Shown here piece after piece: positions 41,407 to 45,471 of a DNA stretch of 45,591 bases (position 1 is its first letter; every line of letters starts with the position of its first letter). Origin of the DNA: Bacteroidetes bacterium RIFCSPLOWO2_12_FULL_37_12. Its GTDB lineage: Bacteria > Bacteroidota > Bacteroidia > 2-12-FULL-37-12. The notes below the pieces were generated by a model. It ran no database searches. It was not told the origin of the DNA and worked only from the letters and a program-made list of their open reading frames with translations. The DNA lies in the NCBI GenBank assembly GCA_001769655.1, contig MEPC01000034.1, positions 1 through 45,591 on the forward strand, read 5' to 3'. The translations under genes were made by a program, and so were the position numbers.

Positions 41407-43155
41407 TTAATCGTTTAAGGAATCAAGGGGCAAGGAATCCTGGGGCATTACCAAAAATTTTGCGGGTCCGGTTAATTTTATTTCCGGTTTGAGGTTTTCA
41501 AATTCGGCTGATGTAATAAGCTCTTTTATGAGCAACTTTTCTGAAACAAACGCATAATACTCTTTTAGAAATTCCCGAAGCATCCCCTTCTTGTCAAAAT
41601 AATATTTGAAATTTTTGGGTCTTGGGATAATGCTGGAAAGAAATAGTGACTCCTGTAAATTCAGATTGATTGGTTTTTTGGAGAAATAAAATTTCGATGC
41701 CTCGCTGATCCCAAAAACGTCTGGTCCCCACTCAATAATATTCAGATAAATCTCATACAGGCGTTCTTTGCTGACCGCGTGACTGTTTTCCAACAGCCAT
41801 ACCAATAAGATTTCTTCCAGTTTCCTGCTGATTGTTTTTTCACGGGACAGGTATATGTTTTTTACCAGTTGCATAGTGATGGTTGAACCCCCCCGTTGAA
41901 ATTTTTTATTTTTCAAATTGGTTATAATGGATTGGCGGAAGGCATCTTCATTAAATCCGTCGTGAAAAAAGAAACTGCCATCTTCGGAAATAAGCACAGC
42001 GTTTTTCAGGTAGTTGGAAATATTTTCCAACGAAACGAAATCGGGGTTCTCCTGACCTACTAAAATTTTTCTATCAGGAAACCCTTTGGAATGTCCTGTA
42101 TAATAAAAGGGTTCATTAAGGGATGGGAAATTTGCTTTACCGAAATTTTTGATACGGAAATTTTCCTTTTTTAATTCCGACTCAAATAACAGGGAGTCGG
42201 TGTGTGATAAATCCAAACCGATACGCAGAAAGTAGTTTAGTAAACCTTCCGCTTTTGTGCTACGGCTTACACTAAATAATCCTACCGGTAATGAATTAAA
42301 AAACTTTCCGGCTGGTAATTGTTCCGTTTGAATAGTTGTTTTGATTTGCAAGGCAGGTTCTTTTTTAATTTCACCGGTAAGGTTAAATGTGATATCATTT
42401 ATTTTTATCCAGGATGGGTTTTCGATATAAAGCGTGTTGTGATTTAAGTGGACATTGAGCAGGTATTGGATTTTTTCAAATACACATTCTTGCGAAGAAA
42501 GATGTTTATTAAAAATTTTAAAATTATAAAAATTCAGTGCGGTTTCGGTCCGTTTAACGTCTTTTGGGGAAGGCATTAATTTTACGGACACAATCATGGA
42601 ATCCATTGATAAAGTAGCGCCACTCCACAAGGGTAACGTAAGTTTACTTGAGGTCTCCTGATAAACTTTTATTTTACAAAAGGACTGCTCCCTATTGACA
42701 ATTCCCTGAGAACTAAATTTACCCAGCGTGTCCCTCGTTATTTTATTGTTCAATTGGAAAAGACAGGAAAATTTACTTTCCTCCATTGAGAAATTATGAA
42801 TGGACAACAACAAACTATCCGGTAAGACAAGCGAACCGTTCTTCATTTTTAGGGAAGAGGGGGGTGAAATATTTCTCAGCATCGCTAAGAAAGAGATTTT
42901 TGCCAGGATAGTATCTGAGATAAAGAGCGTGTCACGATTTTTATCCGTAAATAAAATATTGCTGAAATTAATTTGATTATATCCTACCCAGTACATATTT
43001 TCTACTTTGCAAAAAACTCCATGCTTTGTGAGTTTGTTAATTATATTTTTTTCAAAGACAGAGCGCAACAGGTAATTCCTGCCAAGGAAGCAGGTGGCTG
43101 TGGTAAGAAGGAGGAAGGAGATAAAAAGATAAAATATTTTTTGTTTCAGGGACAT
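41407..43155 (-). CDS. GT51 peptidoglycan glycosyltransferase fused to AsmA-like N-terminal region
   Basis: 582 residues. A membrane anchor (about 6-25) is followed by ~350 residues of beta-rich sequence whose start (VENMYWVGYNQINFSNILF, DTLFISDTILAKISFLAML, SLKMKNGSLVLP) resembles AsmA/TamB-type repeats; this is assigned by pattern. The C-terminal part is a glycosyltransferase family 51 domain that polymerises lipid II into glycan strands. It has EDGSFFFHDG (391-400, catalytic Glu391), RGGSTITMQLVKN (421-433), RKLEEILLVWLLE (444-456) and KERLYEIYLNIIEWG (463-477). There is no transpeptidase domain, so it is monofunctional like MtgA but more than twice as long. It lies downstream of the NlpC/P60 gene on the same strand (gap 114 bp). 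Confidence 0.88.
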   Translation of the reverse strand: MSLKQKIFYLFISFLLLTTATCFLGRNYLLRSVFEKNIINKLTKHGVFCKVENMYWVGYNQINFSNILFTDKNRDTLFISDTILAKISFLAMLRNISPPSSLKMKNGSLVLPDSLLLSIHNFSMEESKFSCLFQLNNKITRDTLGKFSSQGIVNREQSFCKIKVYQETSSKLTLPLWSGATLSMDSMIVSVKLMPSPKDVKRTETALNFYNFKIFNKHLSSQECVFEKIQYLLNVHLNHNTLYIENPSWIKINDITFNLTGEIKKEPALQIKTTIQTEQLPAGKFFNSLPVGLFSVSRSTKAEGLLNYFLRIGLDLSHTDSLLFESELKKENFRIKNFGKANFPSLNEPFYYTGHSKGFPDRKILVGQENPDFVSLENISNYLKNAVLISEDGSFFFHDGFNEDAFRQSIITNLKNKKFQRGGSTITMQLVKNIYLSREKTISRKLEEILLVWLLENSHAVSKERLYEIYLNIIEWGPDVFGISEASKFYFSKKPINLNLQESLFLSSIIPRPKNFKYYFDKKGMLREFLKEYYAFVSEKLLIKELITSAEFENLKPEIKLTGPAKFLVMPQDSLPLDSLND

Positions 43156-43269: not shown

Positions 43270-43863
43270 CTACAATCTTCCGGCTTTGTAAAAATATTTT
43301 TTATAATATTTTTCATTCAAATCATTGATTGTAACGCCCAGTTTTACGGAGGCGTGCACAAATTTATTATTCATCAGGTAAATTCCCATGTGAGAAGGTT
43401 TTTTGCTTTCGATTTTAAAAAAAATCAAATCGCCTTCTTTAAGGTTGCTCATCGAAATATCGTTTATTGCATTGGAGATATTTTCTGTGCTTCCTGATAT
43501 TTTTTTTCCGTAAACGTCCTGCAGTAGCAGAGAAGAAAAACCGGAACAATCAACTCCTTGTTTTGATTTTCCCGAATATTTATAAGGAACACCGAGCCAG
43601 TCATTAATAAAGACATAAAGTTTTATGTTGCGGATTTTGTTTTCATCTACTTCGAGGAGATGTGCAAAGCGGGTTTTTATTTTATTTTCTTTTGATGAAG
43701 GGATATTGCTTTTTGTTTCTTTTGTTTCTTTTTTTTCATTTGGTAGATTTTTGGAGGAGCGGCAGGAAAATATGCATGATGCAAGAAAAAAAATTAACGC
43801 ATAAAAATAAATCAACCTTTTTTCTGGTTTAATTTGTAATAAGCCAAGTGTATAGTTAAACAT
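43270..43863 (-). CDS. NlpC/P60 (C40) cell-wall peptidase lipoprotein
   Basis: 197 residues from the ATG at 43863. The frame stays open to an ATG at 44016, but the shorter start puts a lipoprotein signal at the N-terminus: basic KPEKR, hydrophobic LIYFYALIFF and lipobox LASC with Cys30. A charged Lys/Glu/Ser linker follows, then an NlpC/P60 domain with the catalytic triad visible as GVDCSGF (Cys106), PSHMGIYL (His158) and FVHAS (His170). Such enzymes cut stem peptides of peptidoglycan (usually D-Glu to diamino acid bonds) at the cell envelope. The neighbouring GT51 gene downstream on the same strand fits a cell-wall context. If the longer start were used, the spacing to the upstream gene would be only 12 bp, but the lipobox would lie at residue 81. 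Confidence 0.87.
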   Translation of the reverse strand: MFNYTLGLLQIKPEKRLIYFYALIFFLASCIFSCRSSKNLPNEKKETKETKSNIPSSKENKIKTRFAHLLEVDENKIRNIKLYVFINDWLGVPYKYSGKSKQGVDCSGFSSLLLQDVYGKKISGSTENISNAINDISMSNLKEGDLIFFKIESKKPSHMGIYLMNNKFVHASVKLGVTINDLNEKYYKKYFYKAGRL

Positions 43864-44028
43864 GGCACTAAAAGTTAGAAGCACATAGGTTATGCGTTGC
43901 CATACAGTTCTCGCAATCCTCACATGCTTAAATGTATTTTCTGGTTTTTGTGCTCCACCGTCACATCCTACCGAATGATCGTTAATACTACTGACGCTAT
44001 GTGTTAGAGCGATCATTTCTATTTATTT
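43864..44028. other. 165-bp gap with an open upstream extension and inverted repeat
   Basis: In the preferred annotation this is non-coding, although it stays open in frame with the NlpC/P60 gene. Near its right end atgatcg and cgatcat form 7-bp arms of an inverted repeat spanning about 43976-44017. I could not identify the extension peptide, which contains a second hydrophobic stretch. Confidence 0.45.
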
Positions 44029-44926: not shown

Positions 44927-44934
44927 TATTTTTG
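44927..44934 (+). promoter_or_regulatory. -7 promoter box of the kdsC-like gene
   Basis: TATTTTTG matches the Bacteroidota TAnnTTTG box exactly. A TTTA (44907-44910) 16 bp upstream could be a weak -33 element. The ATG at 44950 would lie roughly 10 bp after the transcription start, which argues against the in-frame TTG at 44932, because that codon is inside the box. Confidence 0.6.
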
Positions 44935-44949
44935 CATGAAATCAATCAC

Positions 44950-45471
44950 ATGGGAACGATCAAAAAAATCTTATCTACCATTGACACTTTTGTTTTTGAC
45001 ATTGACGGTGTGCTGACAGATGGTACTGTTCTGGTAACCGAAAAAGGGGACCACCTGCGTTCCTTTGATGTGAAAGATGGTTACGCCATATTTCATGCTT
45101 TACGGAAAGGATACAGGATCATTGTCATCAGTGGCGGCGATTCATACGGGGTCCGTCATCGTTTAAATTATCTTGGAGTGCGACATATTTATCTCGGGGT
45201 GGAAGATAAACTCAAGGCATTGCGTGAAATTTTAAAAAAATTAAGCGCTGACCCTCAAAAAACATCGTACATGGGGGATGATATGCCTGATTTGGGGGTG
45301 ATGTCTTTTGTGGCACTGCCTTCTGCGCCCTGTGATGCCATAGAGGAAATTCTATCCGTTTGTAAATTCAAGTCCTCAAAACCGGGGGGAAAGGGAGCCG
45401 CGAGGGAGCTTATTGAAAAAGTGATGAAGGTGCAGGGGAGGTGGGTGAATGGGGGGAAGGTGAATTGGTGA
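44950..45471 (+). CDS. kdsC: HAD-family phosphatase, KdsC-like (Kdo 8-phosphate phosphatase)
   Basis: 173 residues from the ATG at 44950. The enzyme removes phosphate from 3-deoxy-D-manno-octulosonate 8-phosphate, giving Kdo for lipid A-core assembly in the cytoplasm. HAD motifs are in order: DIDGVLTDG (Asp17 and Asp19, nucleophile and acid/base), SGG (61-63), Lys88 in the VEDKLKAL helix, and [10 protein letters not shown] (109-118). It lacks a large cap domain, as expected for the tetrameric C0 KdsC type. Length matches the family. The last residues ([13 protein letters not shown]) are encoded by G-rich DNA that passes into the simple repeat downstream, so the C-terminal tail may be recently altered. 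KdsC is preferred over other small HAD phosphatases by motif spacing. Confidence 0.88.

Follow-up and report, generated by a model that had tools for sequence, protein, structure and literature searches.

A GT51 peptidoglycan glycosyltransferase with an AsmA-like N-terminal domain in the Bacteroidota

The genome of Bacteroidetes bacterium RIFCSPLOWO2_12_FULL_37_12 (GTDB lineage Bacteria; Bacteroidota; Bacteroidia; 2-12-FULL-37-12) encodes a GT51 glycosyltransferase in which a beta-strand domain, related by family profiles to the AsmA/TamB proteins, is predicted to lie between an N-terminal membrane helix and the catalytic domain, and the same fusion recurs across the phylum. The window is the entire stretch of DNA analysed, 45,591 nt from assembly GCA_001769655.1 (contig MEPC01000034.1, positions 1-45,591, forward strand), and its features are listed in Table 1. 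An earlier note on this DNA had the coordinates, strand and length of the fused gene right. As far as sequences can show it, the putative anchor, the intact GT51 motifs and the conserved order of the parts are established, and we propose with evenly balanced confidence that the protein is an inner-membrane enzyme whose AsmA-like groove would take up a lipid tail and present it to the active site.

Table 1. Features of the fused gene and its upstream neighbour, in coordinates of the window.
Feature	Coordinates	Strand	Basis
Fused gene (582 aa), a membrane-anchored GT51 protein whose N-terminal domain is AsmA-like	41407..43155	-	ORF from ATG, Pfam, homologues of the same layout
N-terminal helix, residues 3-44; putative inner-membrane anchor	43024..43149	-	Predicted structure and hydropathy
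AsmA-like beta-meander domain, residues ~48-337	42145..43014	-	AlphaFold2 strands, AsmA/DUF748 matches of homologues, hhalign with controls
GT51 (Transgly) catalytic domain, residues 368-522	41590..42054	-	PF00912 and residue counts in 57 copies
NlpC/P60 peptidase, MepS/Spr-like	43270..44016	-	PF00877 E 2.3e-25

The GT51 domain, which had been placed behind an N-terminal part of about 350 residues, is borne out by a Pfam scan of the window protein, with PF00912 matching at 149.4 bits (E 9.4e-44; the cut-off is 27) and 367 residues preceding the match. Those 367 residues are conserved coding sequence, as seen in homologue alignments, in the GT51 motifs of the same frame and in the predicted structure. 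The MtgA equivalog model TIGR02070 scores 146.1, short of its cut-off of 182.65. Motif I contains Glu391, motif II reads GGSTITMQ (422-429), and RKLEE (444-448) and YLNIIEWG (470-477) are also present. Conservation was counted in 57 copies, 43 of the Bacteroidota type and 14 from contigs classed as viral, omitting L097 and L098, which duplicate L011 and L009. Glu391, Asp392, Gln429, Arg444, Lys445, Glu448 and Asn472 are invariant, Lys432, Ser424 and Thr425 are each kept in 56 copies, Glu456 has a single variant, and His398 is kept in 53 with Asn in the other four. Met428 of motif II is likewise present in all 57 fused copies; Gln occupies this position in the short GT51 proteins compared, and Acinetobacter baumannii PBP1a shares the Met. 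We take Glu391, by motif position, to be the equivalent of Glu233 of Escherichia coli PBP1b. Glu233 is the catalytic centre of that enzyme according to PMC4810414. With motifs that are near-unvaried, the fused enzyme looks catalytically active. The two halves of the protein differ in their conservation, the mean pairwise identity among 13 members being 58% in the GT51 part and 22% in the N-terminal part.

The helix at the N-terminus has a hydrophobic core at approximately residues 7-25, with the highest hydropathy over 19 residues (2.05) in the segment starting at residue 7. The likeness of the region behind it to AsmA and TamB, which the earlier note had suggested, is seen in the family rather than in the window protein alone. 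The latter has no AsmA-type match in Pfam (E up to 1) or NCBIfam, its N-terminus alone has none in Pfam at E up to 5, and no Pfam or NCBIfam family is named for residues 1-367. Among 13 homologous N-termini, however, DUF748 is matched by seven (best E 2.3e-7) and AsmA by four (best E 1.5e-7), and relative L003 reaches 29.9 bits against the Pfam AsmA (PF05170) cut-off of 29.8 in the same frame as its GT51 domain. The profile-profile comparison that had been proposed as a check gives a positive answer: alignment of the 13 N-termini with 15 Bacteroidota AsmA proteins by hhalign has a probability of 96.7 (E 4.7e-10), whereas one reversed and five column-shuffled controls do not exceed 0.5. When the membrane helix is cut from both sides the probability is 89.7 (E 1.8e-6, score 57.9), with one reversed and ten shuffled controls scoring no higher than 22.5.

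Searches with the N-terminal profile point the same way. When 155 ORFs from the neighbourhoods are searched, the family profile picks out the 14 fused proteins plus a single other, L096_6, which has Pfam matches to DUF748, AsmA and YhdP and is missed once the helix is dropped from the profile. Among the matches listed from 395 genomes, those in non-fused proteins are mostly frames of ~1,000-1,770 codons, with E down to 3.6e-16; all three of the long non-fused frames that were scanned match DUF748, and one also matches TamB (E 1.9e-61). Searched against PDB sequences, the profile (13 rows) finds a single chain, a design, at E 0.018, which we take to be a chance match, and one Bacteroidota AsmA and one TamB used as queries find no relative there either. 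PMC10900882 describes AsmA-like proteins as having an N-terminal inner-membrane helix and a periplasmic beta-domain, and PMC10900882, PMC12800296 and PMC6791001 have such proteins handling phospholipid. The window protein fits this layout, with its helix followed by strands that would lie on the periplasmic side. The family profiles thus support kinship of residues ~1-340 with AsmA/TamB.

The full-length AlphaFold2 model, built from 17 sequences (mean pLDDT 82.6, pTM 0.71), consists of a helix (3-44), strands between 48 and 366 with two short helices, and a helical GT51 domain. Twenty predicted strands of at least three residues precede the catalytic domain, 18 of them within ~48-337, and the description of this part as beta-rich is right, since ~290 residues of predicted strands follow the helix. 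The strands are amphipathic, with a mean difference between faces of 1.97 compared to 1.24 (sd 0.21) in shuffles, of which 1 in 2000 reached 1.97. Foldseek with the full-length model retrieves structures of GT51 enzymes, 3nb6 being the best match (E 5.6e-10), and VIA-align with its N-terminal part lists porins at Z ~12 and rmsd near 8 A. A model of the domain alone is poorer than the full-length one (mean pLDDT 69.5); with this weak model Foldseek returns no match at E 0.001 or better, and VIA-align places porins and ApoB100 on top, at Z ~10 and rmsd 6-9 A. Structure prediction, which had also been suggested as a check, therefore yields a beta-strand domain behind a helix but no AsmA or TamB among the matches listed, which apart from GT51 are porins, VDAC, ApoB100 and similar folds; this is not evidence that kinship is absent. 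The porin matches prove no kinship themselves and fit a single long, curling antiparallel meander. Together, the profiles and the models support a middle domain that is an AsmA/TamB-type beta-meander with one hydrophobic face on its strands.

The fusion is not peculiar to the source genome. A GT51 match of some kind is present in 59 of 60 genomes of the class, and 12 of the 60 (source genome included), spread across 11 families, have the fused layout, their homologues aligning well into the region ahead of GT51, in open frames of 588-731 codons. A separate short GT51 gene (233-325 codons) accompanies the fused one in 11 of these 12 genomes, with none seen in G042. The source genome itself has three further GT51 open frames of 779, 827 and 274 codons, and as it thus possesses an ordinary short enzyme and two long ones the fused gene is an extra. 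One further fused homologue is found in Bacteroidetes bacterium GWF2_29_10. Across the phylum the N-terminal profile (13 rows) matches 196 of 395 genomes, and in at least 46 of the 395 the match lies inside a frame of 588-798 codons; of these 46, 30 loci were read, 15 were judged from frame length alone and one is the window's own. All 30 loci read have GT51 motifs in the same frame. The named species Parabacteroides distasonis carries a 652-aa member (WP_121956505.1) with GT51 and a DUF748 match (E 1.1e-5), annotated merely as a biosynthetic peptidoglycan transglycosylase. The taxonomic spread that the earlier note had proposed to survey is accordingly wide. The domain in the window is a short version, most relatives having 50-90 extra residues ahead of the catalytic Glu.

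A second clade of fused genes is found in contigs classed as viral. Scanning of IMG/VR gives 19 loci, of which L067 is a Bacteroidota-type fused gene truncated by the start of its contig, and L085 was rejected as an ordinary PBP-like frame. The remaining 17 (L068-L084), on contigs of 27-619 kb, correspond to 14 distinct genes encoding 531-730 aa, three near-copies being set aside. The N-terminal profile of this clade aligns with AsmA at a probability of 24.5 (hhalign), and DUF748 is matched by 2 of 13 N-termini (best E 0.022), so that its own AsmA signal is weak and the tie to AsmA runs through the Bacteroidota fused N-termini, to which it aligns at a probability of 96.3 over the last third of the latter.

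The second-clade genes have neighbours that look phage-like; genes for a deoxynucleotide monophosphate kinase and for a nucleoside deoxyribosyltransferase are among those nearby. The baseplate-hub family phrog_694 is matched weakly in 6 of 14 second-clade records (E 2.9e-7 to 3.4e-4), with one of 14 cellular controls also positive. SSU rRNA is found in none of 14 second-clade records and ribosomal protein L2 in none of 17 records; Terminase_6N is found in none of 18 records (that of L067 among them), and sheath and Terminase_6C in none of the 14 of 17 second-clade records scanned. With a weak baseplate hub and no rRNA or L2, but also no match to the terminase and sheath families tried, the contigs probably belong to large phages. 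A further candidate marker, phrog_2, was discarded as it is positive in 11 of 14 cellular controls too. A gene annotated as mtgA is present in Microcystis phage MaAM05 (MW495066.1, 118323-118913).

In a tree of GT51 sequences the 37 fused rows, of both the Bacteroidota and the viral-contig kinds, fall on one side with support 96/74, the other rows being 17 short GT51 proteins and three PBPs only. L021 (which gave no sequence), L033 (without the motif) and the near-copies L069, L078 and L083 are omitted. The split agrees, though not strongly, with a single old fusion.

Upstream of the fused gene, at a distance of 114 bases and also on the minus strand, lies the NlpC/P60 gene, whose product matches the PRK10838 model at E 2.6e-30, below that model's cut-off; no NlpC/P60 relative lies beside the fused gene in the other 13 loci read. 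Across the 14 loci there is no conserved gene neighbourhood, and no lipid-transport gene recurs. The recurrent neighbours, named by eye, are a ribosome-recycling-factor-like gene adjoining in three loci and a UMP-kinase-like gene nearby in two, which look like housekeeping genes. With no neighbour family recurring beyond these few, the fused gene seems to stand alone. The 781-aa DUF748/AsmA/YhdP-type gene L096_6 (L096:7627-9972, +) comes directly after the fused gene of that locus (L096:5888-7630), and the two possibly form one operon, at that locus only. Elsewhere in the window, a KdsC-type phosphatase gene (44932-45471, +; TIGR01670, 136.3 bits, exceeding the cut-off) lies near the wall genes, and a single frame of 11,127 aa with many near-identical repeats occupies 7550-40933 (-); its end resembles a secretion-type tail by eye, and such a frame is typical of giant Bacteroidota surface proteins. 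A plasmid blast with a 100-base query, which is a poor query, found nothing.

Lipid II is the substrate that GT51 enzymes as a family use and polymerise, and they are held to draw it directly from the membrane; for AsmA-like proteins the accepted role is to transport phospholipid in the direction of the outer membrane. In the mechanism that we propose, a single helix would anchor a monofunctional peptidoglycan glycosyltransferase in the inner membrane, with a small AsmA-like domain sitting between anchor and enzyme. A groove formed by the hydrophobic face of the strands would receive an undecaprenyl tail out of the outer leaflet, either that of lipid II or that of the lipid-linked strand still being extended, and bring it to the active site of the GT51 domain; the enzyme could thereby work away from the bilayer or beside one envelope partner in particular. 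In the source genome it would function alongside the class A PBP-type genes and the short MtgA-type gene. At about 320 residues the domain in the window is too short to cross the periplasm, so that a bridge between inner and outer membranes is unlikely. The earlier note had suggested a lipid-shuttling groove joined to an enzyme that uses lipid II; the fusion to GT51 is real and widespread, and the shuttling is something that we infer.

The main rival is a stalk without lipid traffic, in which the AsmA-like fold serves only as a stiff spacer, fixing how far out the GT51 domain sits or what it partners with, much like the accessory domains found in class A PBPs. We consider this possible, if rather unlikely: the fast evolution of the N-terminal part would be expected of a scaffold no less than of a groove, the domain is shortened in the window's copy and transport genes do not recur beside the fused gene, but the amphipathic strands and the kinship with lipid-handling AsmA/TamB proteins favour a hydrophobic groove. 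We judge it improbable that the GT51 domain makes polymers of an undecaprenyl-linked glycan other than peptidoglycan, or that its work is confined to one special stage of wall building. Such a role would suit a genome that already has a short GT51 frame and a pair of long ones, and a family with its own form of motif II, although the motif residues checked are nearly unvaried and the distinguishing Met recurs in A. baumannii PBP1a.

More improbable still is a lack of any kinship, in which the beta-domain at the N-terminus resembles AsmA through a shared composition of helix and amphipathic strands. That would agree with the lack of an AsmA-type match for the window protein alone and of AsmA and TamB among the structure-search matches listed; against it, the real comparison succeeds without the helix where shuffled and reversed controls fail, and the profile picks from the 155 ORFs just the fused proteins and L096_6 (the latter lost without the helix). 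An extension of the groove reading, which we regard as unlikely, makes the groove a short lipid ladder along which lipid II or the nascent strand slides out of the inner membrane to be polymerised near the sacculus by GT51 at the far end, a device that large phages would have acquired so as to maintain or restore the wall of their host over a prolonged infection.

If the groove reading is true, this one chain, which is conserved across many Bacteroidota families and occurs in the gut species P. distasonis, links wall synthesis to lipid traffic and makes a compact system for examining which ligands an AsmA-like groove accepts. Should the viral contigs be of phage origin, phages would be carrying a wall polymerase that comes with a lipid-handling domain, which would be unexpected. 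No description of an AsmA-GT51 fusion was found in the open-licence PMC literature, a scope that makes this weak evidence of absence. Among known systems, MtgA has in common with the fused protein the GT51 fold and motifs, one N-terminal membrane helix and the lack of a transpeptidase domain; the fused protein differs in having ~320 more residues between helix and enzyme and in falling below the equivalog cut-off, and its family differs from the short GT51 copies in the Met of motif II and in branching apart from the 17 of them in the tree. The AsmA, DUF748 and TamB proteins similarly have an N-terminal membrane helix followed by beta-strands, together with the profile kinship, but the fused protein is far shorter than their frames of ~800-1,770 aa in the phylum and ends in an enzyme. 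The class A PBPs (PBP1A, PBP1B) share the GT51 domain and are among the nearest solved structures to the fused protein, which lacks their transpeptidase domain and carries its extra domain before GT51 rather than after it.
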